A DNA stretch of 64,000 nucleotides from Pontiella agarivorans (GTDB taxonomy: Bacteria > Verrucomicrobiota > Kiritimatiellia > Kiritimatiellales > Pontiellaceae). The stretch is taken from positions 248,001-312,000 of the forward strand of contig NZ_JARVCO010000010.1 of the NCBI RefSeq assembly GCF_034531395.1. The letters run 5' to 3'. The position numbers and the translations under genes are program-made. How positions within the stretch are numbered: position 1 is the stretch's first letter; the number at the start of each line of letters is the position of its first letter. The notes beneath the pieces are model-generated. The model made no database searches. It was not told where the DNA came from and saw nothing but the letters and a program-made list of their open reading frames with translations. Shown here one piece after another: positions 39,931 to 59,569 of this stretch.

Positions 39931-41504
<1,574 letters not shown>

Positions 41505-42251
41505 TTATTTCGGCTTTGTAAACCGGCAGGACGGAAACCCCGAGCAACCCCAGAAGGTTTGACCGACATTCGGGCCTTTCCGCGCTGTCCGCAGTTTCAA
41601 TGTTTTTCCACATCGGGGACATACGGGATCCTGAAAGCCGATTCGGACATTCTGCACATGCAGCTTGTCGGTTTCACGCCCCTGGGCCAGACGTCCCTCC
41701 GTGATTTGTTTGCGGATGTTCAGAACCTCGTTCTTCGAGAAAATCGTTCGTTTAAAGTTCAGAATGTAATCAACATATTCTTTTCCAAAGAAAACCCCGT
41801 CGGGAATATCGGTTTTAAAATCAGCCGAGCCCGCAAAGCATACGATGTTGTGAAACCGGCTGAGCGGCAGGTCCAGAAATTCAGACAGCGCGCAGATATG
41901 GCCGTAGTTTTGCCGGAGCGGATTCAAAAACCGGTTTTTCTTCTGATAAACCACCTGGGTCCAGTATCGCTGCTCCTTTGAACCGAAAATCCATCCGCTG
42001 TAATTTTTGGTCTCAATCACGAAGATTCCGTACATCGAAAGTATAATGTGATCAATCTGCGTCGTGCGCCCGTCCTTCGTCGGGAGGGTCACATCGTGAA
42101 GTTGAAGATAATATTCAGGCGGAAGCCATCGGTCCGCCGCCCGCCTGACCCGGTTTCCCCCGGCCCGTCCGCGCATGCCCGGCAGGATCGCCCCGGAAAC
42201 CGCCCCCAGAATGAGCACCAACATAACCAGAATGAGGATTAAAAAGCTCAA
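41505..42251 (-). CDS. NERD-domain protein with topoisomerase-type zinc finger
   Basis: A 248-residue protein. One N-terminal TM segment (LILILVMLVLILGAVSGAIL) is followed by a NERD nuclease-related domain (LHDVTLPTKDGRTTQIDHIILSMYGIFVIETKNYSGWIFG, with the conserved D and ETKN of PD-(D/E)xK type nucleases) and a C-terminal C4 zinc finger (CPRCGKTLKLRTARKGPNVGQTFWGCSGFPSC) of the kind found in topoisomerase I. The family is thought to handle DNA, but its role is unproven; the TM anchor suggests membrane location. It is on the same strand as the small gene and HNH set upstream. Confidence 0.88.
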   Translation of the reverse strand: MSFLILILVMLVLILGAVSGAILPGMRGRAGGNRVRRAADRWLPPEYYLQLHDVTLPTKDGRTTQIDHIILSMYGIFVIETKNYSGWIFGSKEQRYWTQVVYQKKNRFLNPLRQNYGHICALSEFLDLPLSRFHNIVCFAGSADFKTDIPDGVFFGKEYVDYILNFKRTIFSKNEVLNIRKQITEGRLAQGRETDKLHVQNVRIGFQDPVCPRCGKTLKLRTARKGPNVGQTFWGCSGFPSCRFTKPK

Positions 42252-42417
42252 AATATAACCTTCTATAGCTCAGAGGTCAGCTTCTGTGATGAAGTGTCGG
42301 GAGAGAAAAGGAGACTGTTTTTAAAGATGCTGTCTGTGGCCTTCATTTCGATCGCGAATCATCAGCATATTAAAATATCGGACCGACTCTTTTTTCACCG
42401 CGCGTCCGACCCTTTAG

Positions 42418-42675
42418 TTATCCCGTTTGGTCGAACGTCACAAGTTCCAGCAATGGAACCTCCCATGTGTCGGGATAACTGTCCTTTACATATTTTTCAT
42501 CTATCAGATCTTTCCGCCAATTGACAATGGAGTGAATGCGTACTTCTTTGATGGATTCCATCCGGGGAATCCATTTTTCACTGGCAGCTTTGGATAGAGC
42601 ACCGATTCTTTGCTTATTTTGATTTATCACGAAAACACGATTAACGGCGGCATCGTCTTCTGAAATCACGTCCAT
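42418..42675 (-). CDS. Small unknown protein
   Basis: An 85-residue frame starting 6 bp after the stop of the upstream membrane-protein gene. The composition is protein-like (several Trp, Ile, Val and Glu; RVFVINQNKQRIGALSKA, SIVNWRKDLIDEKYV) and it uses AT-richer codons like its neighbour. There is no signal peptide, TM segment or recognised motif. Tight spacing suggests co-transcription. It may be a genuine small gene of the cassette. Confidence 0.45.
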   Translation of the reverse strand: MDVISEDDAAVNRVFVINQNKQRIGALSKAASEKWIPRMESIKEVRIHSIVNWRKDLIDEKYVKDSYPDTWEVPLLELVTFDQTG

Positions 42676-42681
42676 CAGTTC

Positions 42682-43434
42682 TCAATCATCAATCGGTGTA
42701 AATCCGTGGGTAATGTTTTTTACATTTTTTTCCTCAGTTGCCCAGTCAAGTGATCCTGGTTGGTATTTGAAATGCAAAGAATCGCAATAAGTTTGCCACC
42801 CTCCGATAGGCTCAGGGGACAATTGAGCCGATTCGAGATGAATTAGATTGAGGTAGAAACGGGCAACTTTTCCTTCTACAAAACCCTGACTGGTTTTTAG
42901 TGCCGGAACAGCAAAAATGAATTTGCTTGTGTCAGAGTGCCCTATCCATTCAGCGCGGATTGTGAATCGGTCTTGCTCGTGACCTTTCAGGTTCAAGGCA
43001 AGTGCCGTCGATAAAACATCTCCGTTCTTAACTGTGGAGTTAATCAATAAATGACTTTTTTCAGAAATGGGTTGGGAGCCGCAAAGTCCGGGAGCCTTTT
43101 TAATGGCAAGAATTTTGAAATAACACCGACTTATCGAAACAGGAAGATCTCCCGTATTTTCAATTCTGAAGTCTAAGGTTGAAGAGAACTGATGACTTAC
43201 TATGTCAACGATTCGGATTTTTCCCTGAACAGGACTGTTTGCTGGTAAATGGATATTTTGAGTTATGTTTCCGCCAGCCTGAATATTACTGTTTCCCTGT
43301 ATCTGTTGATTGTTGCTAGTGGATTTTCCAGTAGGGATTAGTCCGAAAGCGAAGCTTACAAAACCGCCAATTACAGCCGTACCAACGGTCATAAAAAACC
43401 AGTTTTTGATACTGTTTTTCTGTTTAGCGCTCAT
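42682..43434 (-). CDS. Membrane-anchored protein of unknown function
   Basis: A 250-residue protein with one TM segment (WFFMTVGTAVIGGFVSFAFGLI) and then a linker SNNQQIQGNSNIQAGGNITQNIHLP. Gly/Asn linkers of this kind often follow TM segments in proteins of accessory islands. The remainder is beta-rich (RIVDIVSHQFSSTLDFRIENTGDLPVSISRCYFK), like an immunoglobulin-type fold. The start was set at ATG 43434, where ggaga stands upstream; an open frame continues to 43467. Base composition is AT-richer than the surrounding genes. The function is unknown. Confidence 0.65.
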   Translation of the reverse strand: MSAKQKNSIKNWFFMTVGTAVIGGFVSFAFGLIPTGKSTSNNQQIQGNSNIQAGGNITQNIHLPANSPVQGKIRIVDIVSHQFSSTLDFRIENTGDLPVSISRCYFKILAIKKAPGLCGSQPISEKSHLLINSTVKNGDVLSTALALNLKGHEQDRFTIRAEWIGHSDTSKFIFAVPALKTSQGFVEGKVARFYLNLIHLESAQLSPEPIGGWQTYCDSLHFKYQPGSLDWATEEKNVKNITHGFTPIDD

Positions 43435-43463
43435 GTTGCTATCTCCGGTATTTAGTTCTTTAT

Positions 43464-44435
43464 TCAAAAATTATCCGCAAACCGTTTCAGATGCCGGGCG
43501 AGGTTTTGCGGGTTGGGACGGTGGTTTTTGTTTTGGGGTAATTTTATTTCCAGGCCTTGGAACTGCCGGATGGAGTAGGTGCTGGTGACGGGCTGGGTCA
43601 TGCGGGTGGAGACGATGACGCGGTAATTTTCGGGGTTGATGGCGATGAGGCCGCGGTCGAAGGCGCGGTGCAGGGTGGGGCAGAGGGCGAGGCCGTTGGT
43701 GATGGTGTCGTCGTGCGACTGGCTGAACGGCACGATATGGCAGGCGTCGATCAGAGATGCGCTAATGCTGGTTTCGACTTTCAGGCCGGAAATGCAGCAG
43801 GTGTTGTCGTAGATCATCGGCACCTGTTTTTTGAATACGCCGCCGCGGACGAAGACCTCTTCTTCGTAGGCTTCTTTATCGAGTGTTTCCTGCAACGTTT
43901 TTATTTTGGCCTGATAGTCAGCGGCTGGTTCGGCGAGGATCTGGCTGTTGACTTCATCCAGATAATTTACCCCGGCTGACAGAGCGGCATCTGGAAAGTA
44001 GCGTTTGAGCATCGTCTGCCGCAAAACGTCCCGCTCCACCGGAGAAGCCATCAGAGCAAAAAGGTCGGGATCGAGTTCCGCATGGCGAATCGCGCGTTGC
44101 AGCACGCCGATAGACTGACTGTTGCGCGTTAGGTTCACCCATGTTTCGAATCCGGGATTTGGAATATGGTGCCAGAATTTTTCTCCGCGCAGATAAAAGA
44201 ACGGCTGGGCAATGAGCGGTGAGTGGGCGGTGGTCACGAGTTCCCGCCAGATGGATTTAAAAGTGCCGACGAGCTCGGGCGTCAGTTCGATGCGGTTACC
44301 GGAGATCCAGCCTTCCTCCAGACCGCGCATGACCGCCAGCAGCAGAACCGGCTTGTGCGGGGCGGGGCCGTATTTTGTGACGCCCTGCCGCAGGTGTGTC
44401 AGTTTATGTTCAAATTTACGGAGGCTCTTGTTCAT
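43464..44435 (-). CDS. HNH endonuclease
   Basis: A 323-residue putative DNA endonuclease of the COG3440 'predicted restriction endonuclease' type. The N-terminal part has YGPAPHKPVLLLAVMRGLEEG, a recognised opening of this family. The C-terminal HNH (ββα-metal) domain reads CCISGLKV...DACHIVPFSQSHDDTITNGLALCPTLHRAFDRGLIAI, with the two His and the Asn of the motif. The start was set at ATG 44435, where the family core begins; the open frame continues to 44624 without support. No methyltransferase gene is next to it. It may serve in defence against methylated or foreign DNA; that is inference. Confidence 0.85.
   Translation of the reverse strand: MNKSLRKFEHKLTHLRQGVTKYGPAPHKPVLLLAVMRGLEEGWISGNRIELTPELVGTFKSIWRELVTTAHSPLIAQPFFYLRGEKFWHHIPNPGFETWVNLTRNSQSIGVLQRAIRHAELDPDLFALMASPVERDVLRQTMLKRYFPDAALSAGVNYLDEVNSQILAEPAADYQAKIKTLQETLDKEAYEEEVFVRGGVFKKQVPMIYDNTCCISGLKVETSISASLIDACHIVPFSQSHDDTITNGLALCPTLHRAFDRGLIAINPENYRVIVSTRMTQPVTSTYSIRQFQGLEIKLPQNKNHRPNPQNLARHLKRFADNF
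43548..43562. repeat. TTCCA-N5-TGGAA palindrome, copy 8
   Basis: Core GGCCT. It lies in the 3' part of the HNH gene. Confidence 0.7.
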
Positions 44436-44888
44436 TTCTGCAATAACAAAAAAAGTTGCAGAAAGCATATGGATCCAATTGGGGTTTAACAAGTGCAGCA
44501 TCGTGCAAACTGCTTCCCGGTAAACCGTTGAATCTTTGTGCAGTTGACCGCGGTTCGGATCGCGGAAATTTTTATTCCGGTCATTGGAAAGCTGGTGGGT
44601 GGCAGTTTCCGGAATGACTAACATTTTACGGGGGAGCGGGTTTTGTGAATTAAAGTGATTAAAGGACGATGAAAAAGTTCCGACTAAAATTGTGCGGAGC
44701 CGGCAATACTGAATAGATCGTTCTCATGATGTTGACTTTAATTTGCAGGATGAATCGGATTTAGCGCTGAAAATAGAATTAAAAGCGTTGAAAATCGGAT
44801 GAATTGCGAATCAGGACAGATTGTTTTCGATCTCATTGAAGAGGGGTCCGGCCGTCGGCCGGGTCGATAAAAAATTCAGAGGAGAGAG
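44436..44888. other. Divergent gap between HNH and the giant secreted protein
   Basis: About 450 bp, AT-rich between 44640 and 44810. A hairpin CCGGCC-GTC-GGCCGG (44848-44862) lies in the leader of the plus-strand gene, 26 bp before its ATG, and is not followed by T residues. No convincing promoter or RNA could be named. Confidence 0.4.
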
Positions 44889-47800
44889 ATGATGAAGCAA
44901 TACCTTGTTGTATCCGCCTGCGCGCTTGCGGCGGCATTCAGTGCGGGATCGGTTCGGGCGGCGTCGTACAGTTATGACGCAACGACCGATTTCACCAACC
45001 TCAGTTCCGGTGAGGTCCCCTATTATGTGCACGGGGCGGAAAACGCGCTGGCGATTAATGCGGCGAATGAAGCGTATCGGGATAAGTTTGCCAAGGCACA
45101 GCTGACGTTTAACGGTACGGCAGGAACGTATGATATTGCGATTACGGCGTTGCGTGAGCTGGATGGGGAGTGTTCGTATCGGCTGTCGGTGAACGGTGTG
45201 CTGATCGGTGAACGTCAGAACGGAACGACGGCCACGGATTATAATCCGCAGGATCATGTCTTTAAAAACGTAGTGGTTCCGGCGGGGGCGCTGATTGAGG
45301 TTGAATCGAACACGCACTCCAACGGACAGATTCCGGAAAACGACGGATTTGCCTGGGCGAGGGGACGCTGGACGACGTTGAAACTGGAAACGCCGCCGGC
45401 GGTCTCGGTGAGCGGGGAACTGAAACGCTGGCATAAGGTGACGCTTACGCTGGATGGACCGACGGCGTCCGAAGTGGCGTCGACGTTTACTGATTACCGG
45501 ATGAATGTTGAGTTTACGCATCGCGATTCCGGTAAAAGCTATCTGGTTCCGGGCTATTTCGCGGCCGACGGAAATGCGGCCGACACCAGTGCGACATCAG
45601 GCAGTAAATGGCGTGCGCATCTGGCACCGGACCTGACCGGGGAATGGGATTATGAAATCAAGTTTCGTACCGGATCGAACGTTGCGGTGGATCTGGGCGA
45701 ATGGGCCGGATCGGCATTGTTCCCGTATAATGCAACCACCGGCAGTTTTACGGTGGCTGAAACCGACAAGTCCGCCGATGACTTCCGTTTTAAAGGCCGG
45801 CTGGTTTATGACGGTTCCCGTTATCTGAAACATGCGGCTACAGGGGGCGCATTCATTAAAACCGGTGCGGACGCTCCTGAGAATTTTCTGAACTACAAAG
45901 ATTTTGATAACACATATACGCATGCCGGAACAGACTATCGCCGGGACTGGGCGGATCATGTGGCCGACTGGCAGAGCGGTGATCCGACCTGGGGCGCGGA
46001 TAAAGGCAAAGGCATGATCGGTGCGATCAACTATCTGGCTTCTGAAGGGCAGAATGTTTTTTCGTTTCTAACCTATAATGCCGGTGGCGACTCGAAAGAT
46101 GTCTGGCCGTTTGTCAGCCACAACAACCCGCTGGTTTACGACTGCTCTAAACTCGATCAATGGGAAATGGTATTCAGTCATGGTCAGAACAAGGGCATGT
46201 ATCTGCACTTTAAACTGCAGGAACGGGAGAATGATGATCTTGATGGACCCGGATCCGCCTATGCGCTGGATGACGGTAACACGGGGCCTGAACGTAAACT
46301 GTATCTCCGCGAATTGGTTGCCCGCTTCGGGCACCATCTGGCACTGAACTGGAATCTGGGCGAGGAAAACTCGCAGTCGACTTCGCAGCAGATGGATATG
46401 TTTCAGTATATTGCCGACATTGATCCCTATGAGAATCATCGTGTGCTGCATACGTATCCGAACGAATGGGAGGATGTCTATCGCCCGCTACTCGGAGAAA
46501 ACTCTGAAATGCTCGGAGTTTCGCTGCAGTGCCGCTACGACCAGGTTCATTCCAGAACGATTCAGTGGATCAATGAATCGAATGCCGCCGGTAAACCGTG
46601 GGTGGTCGCCAACGATGAGCAGGGGCCGTCCGACAAAGCCAATCCGCCGGACTCCGTTTCCCAGACCAATCCCTCGCAGGAGCAGATGCGTGAAAATACA
46701 GTGTGGGGCAATCTGATGGCCGGCGGCGCCGGCGTTGAGCTTTATGCCGGATACCAGAATCCGCACAGCGACCTGACGCTGACCGACTTCCGTTCCCGTG
46801 ACCGGATGTGGGATTACTGCCGCTTTGCGAAACAGTTTTTCTATGACCATCTTATGTTTTCTGAAATGTGGAGTATGAATGGAAAGATCGGTAACAGTGG
46901 AAACAACAACAGCAAATATGCCTTCGGTAAAACGAACAGTAAGTATGCAATCTATCTGCCGAGCGGCGGCTCCACCACCATTGATCTGACCGATGCAACG
47001 GGTACATTTGAAGTCTGGTGGTTCGATCCGCGCAACGGCGGAGATCTGCAGCGCGGTACCGTCACACAGGTCAACGGCGGCGGTTCGCCTTCTGTCGGCA
47101 ATGCACCGAATAATACCGGCCAGGACTGGGCGGTACTGCTCTGCAGGGCCGGTGAAGAGAACATCGGCGAAGGCAGTGTGAGCATTGTCCCTTCTGTAAA
47201 TGCCGGTCAGGACACGTTCATTCATCTGCCGAATGATTCGATTACGCTGAACGGTATTGCAACCGATCAGGACGGCACCATTGTTTCCTATCTCTGGACG
47301 CAGGAGTCCGGCCCGAATACGGCCGATCTGTACGGTGCGACAACAGCCGACCTTACGGCATCGAATCTGGTTGAAGGCATCTATGAATTCAGCCTGACGG
47401 CAACCGACAATGATGGCGGTGAAAGCAGCGATTCAATACAGGTTGTTGTGCTCGACCCGAACAACACGGTTGATCCGACGGCGAATGCCGGTAGCGATAA
47501 AACCATCCAGCTGCCGGTGAATTCTGTTGTGATTAATGGGCTGGCCGACGATGACAGTTTGTTCACGGTGGAATGGACCCAGACCTCCGGCCCGTCATCC
47601 GCCGTTCTGAGCGGCGCGACGACCGCGACACTGACGGCGTCCGGATTACTTGAAGGTATCTATACGTTCCAGATGACCGTGACCGATATTGAGGGGAACG
47701 CAGCGTCTGATTCCGTACAGGTGACCGTATTCCCGCTGGGGGAAGAAGGGGCCTGGATTGAGCAGGGCGGTGTTGTGGTGGTTGAAGCCGAGCATGGCGA

Positions 47801-50800
47801 CCTGGTTTCCGACTGGGTGGCGCGTCCGACCACATATACCTCCGATCCGACCATGGCGGGCAGTCTCGGCAGCGGCTGGCTGGAGTGGACCGGGGCCCAG
47901 TATTCGGGGAACACCAAAACGGAAGCACAGGTCAACGCCGTCATTACCTATAAGATTAAAATCAATACGGCGGGGGACTACATTTTCCGCTGCCGTCAGA
48001 AGCAGTATAACGATGTGGCTTCGTTTGATGCCGGGAATGATTCCTTTATCGCGCTGGCCGGCGGAACCACGCCGGCCGGAAAGACGGACTTCACGAACTT
48101 CACCAAGTCATGGGTGCAGAGCAAACCTTCGTGGTCGTGGATTACCTCGTTTGAGCCGGTGCATGGCACACACGTTAAAAACGACAATGTGCAGCGGCAC
48201 TATGAACCCGGTATTCACACCGTCAAGATTGCGGCCCGTTCTCCGGGGCACGCGATCGACCGGTTTGTTCTGGTAAAAACCACGGTCGGATTCAATGAAT
48301 CGGCCATGAATGCGGCGACGGAATCACCGCGCGAAGGCGGAGGTCCGCTGGTGAAAGCCGGGCCGGATCAGACCATCTATGTTCCGGAAAGTACCGCAAC
48401 GCTGGAAGGCTCTGCTACGCCGATGGAGGAAACCACGCTGACCGGTTTTGAATGGAATCAGATCTCCGGTCCGAACACGGCGGTGATGTCGAGCTACACC
48501 TCTGTGACGCAGGACCTGAGCGGACTGATTGAAGGCACCTATATCTTTGAACTGACGGCGTTCGACAGCGAAACCAATAGCGGAACGGACCGCGTGACCA
48601 TTGATGTGGTCGATGCGCGTTTCCCGAATATCATCACCGCTTCGCTGCCGAACGGTGAAGTGAACAGTGCCTATGACCAGACGATTCAGACCCAGTATGG
48701 ACAGGAGCCGTTTACCTGGGAAATCATCAGCGGAACCCTGCCGCCGGGGCTGACCTTCAGTAATGGACGGATTTTCGGTACGCCGCTGCTGGACGCCGCC
48801 TATAACTTTACGGTGCAGGTGACGGATACAGACGGTGACAGCCGTTCGCAGGCCTATACCCTGGTGATCGATGAGGAGTCGTTCGAGGAAACCAAGGAGT
48901 TCACGGTGCTGCACGATGCCTACATTCAGGGCACCACACCGTTCAATACCTCGGAACTGAAAATCGAAGCGGGTAACCGGGTGGCGTATTTCATGTTTGA
49001 TGTCTCCGGCATTACGGATGATGTACTCAGTGCGAAGCTGGCTCTGCGCTGCGCCGGTGATGCCGGCAGCGGAACGATCCGGCTGTATTCAGGGTCCCAC
49101 AATAACTGGACGGAGACGACGCTTACCGATGCCAACAAACCGGGAACGGGGGCAGAGGTTGGAAATCAGAACGGCAGTTATGCCACCGGAACCACCTATG
49201 AGTTTGAGGTTAAAGATCTGCTCGACGGCGTTGGTGACGGAACATATACGCTGATTGCCCAGATGGACAGCGGCGGTAACGATGCCTGGTTCAGTTCCAA
49301 GGAAGGGGCCGTGGCGCCGAAGCTGATCGTGACCTACAATCTGGCCGGCGGGGGCTCCGGCCCGCGTCCGGCGGACATCATCTTTGAAGATGATTTCAGC
49401 AATGCGGCCTACAGCAACACGCTGACCGGTGCGGATTGGCACCCGAAATGGGAGGAACTGACCGATCAGCAGGATCTGCTGACCGGAAACGGGCAGTATG
49501 CGGTGCTTGATACCTCCGTGGCCACCCGCAATTACCACGTCCCGATATCGCACGGTTTTGCGCTGACCGAAGACGGGGATAAAGCAATGGTCCGTTCCGA
49601 CTTCCGTTACTACCACAATGCGGGCGGTGATATTACGAACGTCTTCAATAAAGCGGCGTTCGGCCTGTTGCTCGGTGTGTCTTCCAACTGGTGGGAAAAC
49701 GGCGGCGATGCCTTCACCATGTGCAACCGCGGTTCGGCCATGGGCAATAACGGCAATGGAGAAAACAATGTCTGGGTCGAAGGCTGGGTGCCGCATTCCG
49801 AATTCGGGGTGGATACCTCCGTCGGCGGTTTCAGCGACTGGTTCACCATTGAGCTGACGGTTGAGCGCGGGGTGTCCAATTATGTGCGTTATGCGGATAT
49901 CCTGATCGGCGGTGCCGTGAAGTACAGCACGGTAACGCAGGAGCTGAGCCATATCCCGAACGGGGAAACCATCTATGCCGGCTATACCACCGGTTGGCAG
50001 GGTTCCACGAACAGCGTGGCGTCGTTCAGTAAAATTGCTGAAGTGAACATGGATAATTTCCGCGTGGAATTTATTCCGGCCAATGCCGCGCCGTGGTTTA
50101 TTTCGGATCCGGTTGACGGCGGTACGGTGGCGGCGGAATCGGCGTATGCCGCATCGCTGACCAACTACACGTTTGAGTCGGAAGGCGAAATGATGACCTT
50201 TGATCTGACCGGCCCGGCCTGGCTGAGCTGGACGACCAACGGAACACTGAGCGGAGTTCCGGACATTGGAGACAGGGGGACCAATGCATTCGACGTTACG
50301 GTTTGGGATGAATCGGGCAATACCAACAGCGCGATACTTCAAATCGTGGTAACGGATCCGAATCCGCCGCTGCCGTTAACCACGCTGTGGGAAGAGGATT
50401 TCGACAGTGCGTTCATCGGTGCGGCCTCGGGCGTGAATGAAGTCTTGCCGGGGGCGGAATTCTACACGGCAAACGGCATCACGGCTGAAGTGGTAGCGGC
50501 ACCGGCGGAATTCACATCGGCTTCCGGGAATGCGGCACTGCTGAGCACGCAGGCCAATCTGTGGGGCGGCGTGGAGCAGTCCGCCAGTGCGATCAGTCTG
50601 GGTGGATATAATATTCAGCCCGGCGATACATACAGCCTGTCCTTCGATGTTTATATTCCGTCAAACCTGACGGCAGGGGTCGGCGGAGTCTTCCTGCGCT
50701 GGAGGGACGATACGTCCGGTAACGGATCATTCGACTGGTCGCAGGAAGTGACTGCGGCCGGTGTGCATCATTTCGAGTACACCGGGACCTTCCCGTTGAA

Positions 50801-51338
50801 TTATGGCGCGGGCGACTTTATTCCGACCGAAGTCTGGCCGATCATCTACTTCAATCAGGATGGCGCGGTGGCCGACGGCCATGCCTTCATGGATAATATC
50901 CTGCTGACGATCGGGCCCGGAGAGGTTCCGGATTCCGGTTTCGGGGAATATGAAAACGAGGTCGGTCTGGTTGGCGGACGTGAAGGTGACGATGATGACG
51001 ACGGCGAAAGCAACTTCTATGAGTTTGTTTTCGGCGGTGATGCCACCAATGCGGCCGTGACCACCGTGCCGCCGTATCTGCAGCTCGATGGCGACGGAAC
51101 TGCGCGTTACATTGCGCAGGAGCGGATTGACCGTGATGCTGCGGGCCTGGTCTATACGGTCGAATGGTGCGACAACCTCGTTTCCAATGATTGGAACGCA
51201 ATGACCGTCGATGGGGTGGTTACCAACGACCTTCCGGAATCCGCCGTTATGGAAGAGCTGGAACATCACTTCCAGATGGACGAAGGAGCCGTGGACGGCC
51301 GGTACATCCGGCTGCGTGCGGAAGAGTCCGTCGAATAA
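44889..51338 (+). CDS. Giant secreted multidomain glycoside hydrolase-like protein
   Basis: A 2,149-residue exported protein; signal peptide [20 protein letters not shown]...VRA, ribosome binding site ggagagag. A sugar-binding beta domain (25-165) and a DUF5060-like domain ([14 protein letters not shown]..., 175-280) precede a TIM-barrel-like region (300-680) with likely catalytic acids in LNWNLGEEN and VVANDEQG, resembling the DUF4038/apiosidase group. A collagen-binding-type beta domain ends in [10 protein letters not shown]. Then come two PKD-like domains (about 765-955), a carbohydrate-binding-like domain (970-1145), another PKD-like domain, an Ig-like He_PIG domain ([16 protein letters not shown]), a DNRLRE-type domain ([22 protein letters not shown]), lectin-like regions, a second He_PIG domain and a terminal YTVEWCDN...W module. 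It is probably a polysaccharide-degrading enzyme held at the cell surface. Confidence 0.85.
51182..51196. repeat. TTCCA-N5-TGGAA palindrome, copy 9
   Basis: Core ATGAT. It lies near the 3' end of the giant secreted protein gene. Confidence 0.75.
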
Positions 51339-57143: not shown

Positions 57144-58642
57144 TAAAAACCGCGTTTGGAACCCTCGGTGGGGTGTTCGTTTTTTCTTTAAACCTTTACG
57201 CAGATACAAACCGTCCGGCGCCTCCGTCACTTTCTCTGGAGCAGGCTGTATTGATGGGATTGCAGCATAACCGCGGTCTGCAGGTACAACAATTTAACCC
57301 GGTCATTGCCGGGGCGTTTGAACAGCTGGAGCGCGGCGTCTACGATCCTGAATTTTTTGCATCTTTTTCGGATACAGAAGAAAATGTGGTGGAAACGTCT
57401 ACGGCAACGGTTTCGCAGTTTCAGAATGAAGGCTCGGATACGGAAGGGGCTGTCGGTATCCGCCAGCAGCTTCCGACGGGGACCGAAGTGGAAGCGTCGG
57501 TCAGCTCGGAGCGGTCCATTTCAACCCGTTCGCCGGAACAGCAGACGGCGCGTCTGGGCTTAACGGTAACGCAGCAGCTTTTGCGTGGCTTCGGGCCGTC
57601 CGTGAATCTGGCCTCTATTCGGCAGGCGGAGCTGGAGACCGAGGCCAGCCGGTATGAATTGCGGGGATACACGGAAGCGGTAATCGCTGATATTGAAATG
57701 GCCTATTGGCGCTATGTGGCGGCCCGGGAGGCGATTCGGGTGGTGAAGTCGTCACTGGAAATTGCGCAGAGCCAGCTGGAGGAGGTTGAGTCTCGTATCG
57801 AAGTCGGGGACCTTCCGGAAAATGAAGCGGCTGCGGCACGCGCTGAAGTGGCGCTGAGCAAGCAGAATCTTATTGATGCGCAAAGTGCCATGGAAAAACA
57901 GCGCTATACCCTGCTGCGTTTGGTGCAGCCGAACCTGTCGGTGACCGAAATGCAGGCGCTGGAGGCCGTCAGCTCGCCGGATGTTGATGTATCCAGGGAG
58001 CCCGATGCAGAAGAGTCAATTCTGTTGGCCCTGCAGTCCCGGTCGGAAATCAAGGAGGCCGAACTGCAGCTGCAGCGCGGCGAACTGGAAACGGTGGTTA
58101 CGCGCAACGGCCGGCTTCCGAAGCTGGAACTGTTTATTAATCTGGGAAAAACCGGTTATGCGGATACGTTCGACGACAGTTTTAAAAACCTCGATGGACC
58201 GGGCTATGACGTAACCGTCGGGCTGGAGTTCAGTCAGGCTCTCGGAAATCGCCAGGCGCGGGCGCGGGATATTATTGCACGTACAGAGTTGGAGCAGGGG
58301 AAAGAGGCGCTGGCCAATCTGCGCGATCTGGTGCGGTTCGATGTACTGCTGGCCCTGAACGAGCTGAAGCGGGCCCGCCTCCAGGTCTCCGCGTCGACAG
58401 AAACCCGCGGCTATCGGGAGCAGACGCTGCAGGCGGAACGCGACCGCTTTGAAGTAGGCACTGCCACGGCGCTGGATGTGGCTTTAACGCAGCGCGATCT
58501 GTTGCAAAGCCGTCTTGCTGAAATTGAGGCGCGGGTGGCGTTTATGATTGCGCGAATCCGCCTTTTTCAGGCTGAAGGAACCCTGATTGAACGGCGGGGT
58601 CTTTCCATTGATTCTGTCGATAGGGAAATTATCGATTGGTAA
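57140..58642 (+). CDS. TolC-family outer-membrane efflux protein
   Basis: Outer-membrane channel of the efflux system, 500 residues. A short signal peptide ([18 protein letters not shown]) is followed by two repeats of the TolC fold: [21 protein letters not shown], a beta part with [21 protein letters not shown] and [21 protein letters not shown], then helices [42 protein letters not shown]. The second repeat has [15 protein letters not shown] and [20 protein letters not shown]. The long N-terminal beta stretch after [13 protein letters not shown] is typical of the PVC/Bacteroidota-type TolC. The ATG overlaps the pump stop (ATGA). A terminator lies about 200 bp downstream. Confidence 0.92.
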
Positions 58643-58840
58643 TAATTTTATCGGGGATGGAGACCGCTCTTTCATTGAAAAAGGTCAAAATCGCAAAATC
58701 CGGCTTTGAGAAGAAATTGCTGTATCTTTCTGTATTCATGCCGGATACGAATGGCTGGATGATATTTTTAAGGAAATTCGACCAAAAAACCTGCCGGGCG
58801 ACGTATTGTATATGAAACTCGGGTTTGGGTTTCACTTGGG

Positions 58841-58887
58841 CTGCGTGGGGTTTCTCCTCCTCTTTTCCTCACGCAGTCTCTTTTTTT
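58841..58887 (+). terminator. Strong intrinsic terminator of the efflux operon
   Basis: A 10-pair stem, CTGCGTGGGG with CCTCACGCAG (one G-U pair), a 16-base loop and then TCTCTTTTTTT. It lies about 200 bp after the TolC-type gene. Confidence 0.8.
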
Positions 58888-59044
58888 GCCTAAATGACAA
58901 AGACCTCTCTGCTGCTCAAAAAAAAACTGCTGAAAATCCTGCACGGTTTTTCTGGGCTAAACCTTGAATTTTTTAGTGTGGCTATAAATCACGGTTAACA
59001 TATTTCTGTATTACGGGTTTTAAAAGGACCCTTTATTAACAGGT

Positions 59045-59078
59045 GCCGTGTTTTAATCCTTAAAACACGGCGTCTTTT
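59045..59078 (+). terminator. Second intrinsic terminator in the gap
   Basis: A perfect 12-bp stem (GCCGTGTTTTAA/TTAAAACACGGC) with a 3-base loop, followed by GTCTTTT. No annotated gene ends between it and the terminator at 58841, which hints at a short transcript between them. Confidence 0.75.
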
Positions 59079-59227
59079 GCAGTGCTTTGAAATGGTGGAA
59101 ACCTGCTTAAAAGAGCTGGTAAATAATACTAATACAGACCGCTTATGTATTGCTAATCTTTGGTTCACGTTGTGCTGTAGTCATGCCTTGATTCTCCAAT
59201 ACGGAACATAAAAAAGGATGGCGACAC

Positions 59228-59569
59228 ATGAAAAATATTTTTGCACTTTGGATGGCACTCGCCGTACTCCACTTAATGCTGACGGTCTCCAGGGCGGACG
59301 GAACGATTACTGAGGTAAACGTGGTGAAATCCGGACTGGAACTGAAAACCTGGATGGTGATCGGAAATAAGTATCAGTTGCAGTGCTCGACGAATCTGGT
59401 GGAAGGAAGCTGGGAGGATCTGGGCGAACAGATCAACGCAGTTATGACGGTAAGTAATTTGTATGTACATACCGAGGCCGAACAGTGCTGGTTCCGGGTG
59501 GTGGAAGAACAGGGGGATGCGGCGGGTCCCACCAGTCCGCCGAAACCGCCGGGCAATCTGCCCTTCTGA
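59228..59569 (+). CDS. Small secreted protein
   Basis: A 113-residue exported protein with a signal peptide (MKNIFALWMALAVLHLMLTVSRA). The ribosome binding site aaagga lies 10 bases before the ATG. The mature part is one module, KYQLQCSTNLVEGSWEDLGEQ...EQCWFRVVEE, of the 'Y-x-(V/L)-(E/Q)-(W/C)-S-T-N-L...W...F(R/Y)V' kind. In PVC bacteria such modules sit mostly at the C-termini of large secreted proteins; here it stands alone. A Pro-rich tail (TSPPKPPGNLPF) ends the protein. Its function is unknown. Confidence 0.75.
   Translation: MKNIFALWMALAVLHLMLTVSRADGTITEVNVVKSGLELKTWMVIGNKYQLQCSTNLVEGSWEDLGEQINAVMTVSNLYVHTEAEQCWFRVVEEQGDAAGPTSPPKPPGNLPF

Follow-up and report, generated by a model that had tools for sequence, protein, structure and literature searches.

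Genes between mreB and a secreted-type protein gene

We analysed a 64,000-nucleotide stretch of the Pontiella agarivorans genome (contig NZ_JARVCO010000010.1, positions 248,001 to 312,000; hereafter the window). Four minus-strand open reading frames (ORFs) in it, encoding an HNH nuclease, a membrane protein, an 85-residue product and a NERD protein, fill a variable interval between mreB and the gene for a secreted-type protein (Table 1). A first-pass annotation had described this arrangement correctly and had suggested that the set could be an undescribed defence or DNA-handling system. From sequence comparison and structural modelling, we consider it likely that this interval next to mreB is a mosaic defence spot that includes an intact nuclease, composed of a sulphur-binding domain (SBD) and an HNH domain, which would depend on phosphorothioated (PT) DNA.

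Table 1. Positions in the window of the genes at the locus, with the basis of each assignment
Feature	Position	Strand	Basis or remarks
mreB	39931-40959	-	Border of the variable interval; identity to three relatives, 96-99%
NERD with topoisomerase-type C4 zinc ribbon	41505-42251	-	PF08378, PF01396
85-aa ORF, helicase 3′ relic	42418-42675	-	Matches to helicase C-termini
Orphan membrane-protein gene, 250 aa	42682-43434	-	Hydropathy; no family
SBD-HNH gene, 323 aa	43464-44435	-	Pfam, PDB profile match, Foldseek
2149-aa secreted-type protein	44889-51338	+	Other border; 94% identical in G025

The HNH and membrane-protein genes are separated by 29 bp, and the latter from the 85-residue ORF by 6 bp. 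The middle two genes had been described as AT-richer than their neighbours, and this was borne out: GC content is 0.416 (0.378 at third codon positions, GC3) for the membrane-protein gene and 0.430 (GC3 0.442) for the 85-residue ORF, against 0.56-0.57 for both border genes (mreB, 0.574; GC3 0.647). The HNH and NERD genes have values of 0.559 (GC3 0.694) and 0.518 (GC3 0.618), respectively. Only 0.16% of 753-bp segments, taken at 50-bp steps across the 64 kb, reach the AT content of the membrane-protein gene, whose codon usage also deviates most among the six genes scored.

The HNH gene and its sulphur pocket

In what follows, G numbers denote related genomes that were compared and L numbers individual loci read out of genomes or plasmids. 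The longest frame of the HNH gene extends to position 44624; we placed the start at 44435, giving a protein of 323 residues, because DNA homology to the copy in G017 spans 43468-44435. Pfam identifies a C-terminal HNH_2 domain (PF13391, 9.6e-14) and a NERD domain (6e-31) in the NERD protein, in agreement with the nuclease-related folds that the first-pass annotation had seen in both. A family profile compared with the PDB matched SBDHga1 (2.7e-24) and ScoMcrA (5.9e-7), which places an SBD in the N-terminal half of the HNH protein. The AlphaFold2 model of the protein (pLDDT 93) gave as its first Foldseek match the structure of SBDHga1 with PT-DNA (PDB 8h0l; TMt 0.86-0.89), with the SBDs of ScoMcrA and SprMcrA among the next ranks. 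SBDHga1 is the closest solved domain, at 28-29% identity; its structure is of the isolated domain only, and a literature search on SBDHga1 found no paper.

Residues H27, K28 and P78 of the window protein correspond to the ScoMcrA pocket residues H116, R117 and P165, whose roles are described in PMC6224610. The family motif GPAPHK aligns with ScoMcrA GPALHR (H116, R117) and PFF with PFW (P165). According to the same source, most homologues carry lysine in place of R117, and Y164 is poorly conserved. The HNH triad is intact (H233, N247 and H256). The pocket H, K and P and the triad are present in all 32 aligned sequences, an invariance that is partly built in, as 25 of the rows were gathered by peptide patterns covering the pocket residues. 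These 25 stem from the 33 pattern-collected loci, not all of which are represented; six further rows, taken from other loci, repeat genes of those loci or represent close relatives. In a pattern-free set of 14 distinct rows (L024 and L033 were omitted as barely more than the HNH domain aligned, and L130 duplicates L016), the proline is kept in every row and the H-K pair in 10, the remainder having Y-K (twice), N-K (once) and H-Q (once).

For the HNH gene, comparison with the syntenic G025 copy gives a dN/dS of 0.21 and comparison with G017 one of 0.09, the latter at a high dS of 1.36; the gene is therefore kept by purifying selection. Taken together, it is an intact gene, probably for a type IV restriction endonuclease acting on PT DNA. 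The SBD would capture the sulphur of PT-DNA in a hydrophobic pocket, after which the C-terminal HNH domain would cleave nearby; plasmids, integrative elements or phages that enter with PT-modified DNA may be restricted in this way. The DNA of the host itself would not be targeted, because no PT-making enzyme is detectable there: neither DndC nor SspD was found in the genome carrying the window at E 0.001. This fits the expectation, given in PMC7461809, that PT-dependent enzymes accompany dnd clusters rarely. DndC scored above the cut-off in two of 97 genomes (G001 and G008), both without a close HNH gene, and in none of the seven genomes that carry one.

Several observations weigh against a PT-dependent nuclease. 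Pfam found HNH_2 alone in the protein and no SBD. The NCBIfam model for PT-DNA restriction endonucleases (NF045808) matched over positions 11-280 of 284 with 78.6 bits, below its cut-off of 180; as the model is of the type "exception", our claim is of a related branch and not of the exact family. Two of five pocket positions differ from ScoMcrA (Y164 to Q, A168 to Y); SBDHga1, which was solved with PT-DNA, likewise has residues other than tyrosine and alanine there. The genome (4.44 Mb in 12 contigs) is ~97% complete, so the absence of DndC and SspD is not absolute. Finally, genes for DndC and DndA adjoin an HNH homologue in three loci (L072, L096 and L099), and in L170 a homologue adjoins DndB-E-D-C. 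Such positions are awkward because the enzyme would cut PT DNA. The same loci, together with L169, where a PT-associated methyltransferase is encoded near an HNH homologue, were also counted in favour of PT recognition, as they bring homologues close to PT genes. A DndC-like gene, an SBD-HNH gene and a DndA-like cysteine desulphurase gene lie side by side at L072:8551-12374, L099:8749-12351 and L096:101-2874; the DndC match in L099 is split across two ORFs, and the DndA match in L096 is a 167-residue piece. PADLOC matched no other dnd genes among the scanned neighbours in these three loci. HNH and NERD nucleases have been reported near Dnd modification genes in PMC10853773.

The window protein resembles the SBD-HNH PT-dependent endonucleases EcoWI, SprMcrA and Ksp11411I (PMC7461809), which likewise consist of an SBD followed by an HNH domain in about 300 residues and have in common with it the pocket H, K and P, the HNH triad and a host lacking a detectable PT-making enzyme. 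It is distant from them by the NF045808 score (78.6 vs 180 bits), differs at the two pocket positions noted above and belongs to a branch in Kiritimatiellota and Bacteroidota with varied defence neighbours. ScoMcrA, with the order SBD-SRA-HNH (PMC6224610), shares the SBD fold, the pocket and the C-terminal HNH domain, whereas the window protein lacks SRA and is clearly shorter (323 residues, where the solved chain has 561 or more). We thus regard the HNH protein as a predicted addition to the known PT-restriction enzymes, and the locus as a putative module-swapping defence spot and not a new four-gene system. The protein would extend the sulphur-sensing restriction enzymes by a branch from Kiritimatiellota and Bacteroidota.

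Exchange and remnants in the interior of the locus

The NERD protein scores 107.7 bits against PF08378 (cut-off 22.1; 6e-31), carries a PF01396 zinc ribbon (2.7e-9) and has an N-terminal hydrophobic segment. In G025, the nearest relative, the flanks are those of the window (mreB is 99% identical) and the HNH gene is syntenic. DNA homology between the two ends at the HNH stop codon and restarts at the NERD 3′ end. There, a NERD relic retains approximately the first 27 and last 25 codons with the middle deleted (L041:1930-2230), and the interior between HNH and NERD holds a type I restriction-modification (R-M) set of HsdM, HsdS, AAA and HsdR. Shared flanks and the NERD relic are most simply explained if the common ancestor had both HNH and NERD and the interior alone differs. 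On this comparison NERD would be an older occupant of the locus. The zone between HNH and the older NERD would be a swap zone, filled in the window by an AT-rich orphan gene and the 85-codon end of a giant helicase gene, and defence modules would thus have been exchanged beside mreB next to retained genes.

Among the seven close HNH loci (the window, L037, L038 and L041-L044), a NERD gene or relic is near HNH in four: the window, L041 (the relic), L042 and L043. Counting the window and G025 as one lineage, the figure is three of six. None was found in the close HNH loci L037, L038 and L044. The L042 homologue (L042:4872-5714) includes the zinc ribbon, is 47% identical and lies on the opposite strand ~3.3 kb from HNH, in an island of HNH and type I R-M genes. 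In L043 (9611-11365), a NERD gene with no detected zinc ribbon is directly upstream of the close HNH gene, on the same strand with a 6-bp gap, in an island that also holds type I R-M and Fic genes. At E 1e-10, 15 of 58 genomes, among them that of the window, carry a NERD homologue; the other members of the genus with a close HNH gene have none. Across the 28 wider loci described below, the sole match is a weak one in L073 (6.9e-6, ~4 kb off).

The 85-residue ORF, which had been taken for a small unknown protein, matches the C-termini of open frames of 1707-1756 residues in G017, G007, G022 and G005 at 46-56% identity. These four and the window's own genome are the five of 58 genomes with a match, and the window's genome has no long copy. 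The alignment starts within the helicase C-terminal domain. The ORF has no Pfam domain; the helicase domains are gone and the last 85 codons alone are left. Differences from the G017 copy at the three codon positions (31, 14 and 45 over 82 codons) reflect a shared coding history of the relic and say nothing on present use. By these alignments the ORF is a 3′ relic of a gene for a ~1740-residue RecQ+UvrD helicase, of which relatives have intact copies. A free-standing small protein was considered and rejected, as all four relatives carry the sequence as the end of a ~1700-residue ORF and the alignment begins in mid-domain. Small "unknown" ORFs in defence islands can thus be remnants of large genes. 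The corresponding known protein is a ~1700-residue RecQ family ATP-dependent DNA helicase, of which the window holds only the C-terminal end. The giant helicase has RecQ and UvrD halves, and its N-terminal segment, with no Pfam match, looks like a DEDD-type exonuclease.

In several relatives this helicase gene lies near HNH. In G017 the genes for HNH, the giant helicase and a Schlafen-group-3 helicase (PADLOC candidate PDC-S41) are in tandem with gaps of 13 and 17 bp. In G022 a Y1-type transposase and an LmuB-like relic separate HNH from the giant helicase, and in G007 the giant helicase runs into a truncated HNH. In G068 a broken helicase gene faces HNH, an HIT protein and PDC-S41, and in Mongoliibacter (L090) the helicase is followed by HNH. 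The Pontiella sulfatireligans locus L038:10807-14739 comprises a full HNH gene, a Y1-type (REP-like) transposase, a second HNH 3′ end, an LmuB-like relic and the giant helicase. Extra HNH 3′ fragments also occur at L045:6618-7085 (G022), near ORFs judged from their sequences to be serine-recombinase-like and ParB-like, and at L046:6160-6235 (G017).

The membrane protein starts at an ATG at 43434 within an ORF of 261 codons. Hydropathy indicates one N-terminal membrane helix (approximately residues 13-33), followed by the Asn/Gly linker already pointed out in the first-pass annotation and by a C-terminal part. Searches gave no Pfam or PADLOC family, and NCBIfam gave only a chance-level match (E 0.13). 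The protein was not found in 57 other relatives; 386 other genomes of the phylum yielded one marginal match (E 0.008, 25% over 117 residues), and plasmids, phages and viral contigs no clear relative. A single-sequence fold was unusable (pLDDT 35). The gene is probably a recent arrival; its base composition, which differs strongly from that of HNH, suggests that it came separately and recently.

Defence neighbourhoods and alternative explanations

We examined 28 HNH loci (L072-L099) from organisms other than Pontiella and its closest relatives. A defence-type neighbour stands beside HNH in 16 of these (17 with the TIR protein of L089): a DUF3427 helicase in six, a second HNH in five, DndC-like in three, and HsdM and the giant helicase in one each. 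In PADLOC, the 82 near proteins (within 1.5 kb) matched 125 families and the 92 far ones (beyond 6 kb) of the same loci matched 21; these are counts of families, not proteins, with at most four proteins per locus taken in locus order and those below 120 or above 1300 residues dropped, the L090 helicase among them. These data support the conclusion that HNH homologues sit in defence islands.

Defence had thus been anticipated rightly for the HNH gene, on domain, fold and islands, but not for the four genes as one system. That they form a single system is hardly credible: they share a strand, two have nuclease-type folds and the gaps of 29 and 6 bp are short, yet the 85-residue ORF is what remains of a helicase gene, nothing clearly related to the membrane protein was found, and G025 keeps HNH with NERD deleted and a different interior. 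The gene set is not conserved together in other genomes. For the membrane protein, co-occurrence with HNH cannot be shown as it has no clear relatives, and the matches of the 85-residue ORF are helicase ends. A two-gene unit of HNH and the membrane protein, the latter as effector or guard, is also highly improbable. Their shared strand and 29-bp gap make co-transcription likely, but G017, G019, G022 and G025 have a close HNH gene and no membrane protein genome-wide, none is present in the stretches of G083 and G092 that were read, and the base compositions are very different. HNH and NERD as a working pair, with replaceable passengers between them, would account for the NERD genes or relics in four of the seven close loci (three of six by lineage). 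We think this decidedly unlikely, as G025 lost NERD and retained HNH, no NERD is present in the G017, G022 and G019 loci and only one weak match in the wider 28, the NERD proteins are unlike one another (that of L043 lacks the zinc ribbon) and most genomes with NERD have no close HNH.

A lesser possibility is that the protein is an HNH restriction enzyme whose SBD-like domain recognises a different modification or simply a DNA sequence, or a DNA-cutting partner of neighbouring systems. The recurring neighbours (DUF3427/PLD helicase in six of 28 loci, type I R-M, RecQ/UvrD helicase), the two altered pocket positions and the homologues beside PT-making genes are consistent with this. Against it, the closest solved domain is an SBD bound to PT-DNA, every one of the 14 pattern-free rows has the key proline, and HNH has no obligate partner, because its partners vary. 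A PT-dependent nuclease in a mosaic locus remains our preferred explanation over an arrangement in which SBD-HNH, the giant helicase and the Schlafen-group-3 helicase make up an undescribed multi-gene defence, intact in G017. In this reading, SBD-HNH would sense and cut sulphur-marked or otherwise altered DNA, with the helicases, the giant one having an exonuclease-like N-terminus, unwinding it and contributing to its destruction, and the window would be a decayed copy in which the sensor nuclease survives along with 85 terminal codons of the helicase. We judge this unlikely because the helicase often stands without HNH or Schlafen. Were the association functional, PT sensing would be tied to helicases, a connection not found in the literature searched; one literature search for the combination turned up a single paper, on HEPN proteins. 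An obligate HNH-helicase-Schlafen system was considered and is weakened by two counts. The helicase is present in five of the 28 genomes of the wider HNH loci, known beside HNH in L090 only, and none of eight plasmid copies (L159-L164, L166 and L167; eight of 23 records with a helicase match, from incomplete gene tables) has an annotated HNH or Schlafen within 6 kb.

Helicases of ~1700 residues with RecQ and UvrD halves are carried on plasmids of many proteobacteria and Bacteroidota, annotated only as RecQ family helicases and with no constant annotated partner; L126, L127 and L128 show no HNH or Schlafen partner of the helicase. We also considered whether the mreB flank is a dedicated defence hotspot, which was unsupported: among 23 other mreB flanks, several of them shorter than 3.2 kb, HNH occurs only in L041 and L044 (in the latter ~9 kb away), the helicase lies on the flank in L039, and most of the remaining flanks carry other genes. 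A further AT-rich stretch (GC ~0.42) is present at 58500-59350 of the window, after an ORF for a TolC-like outer-membrane protein.

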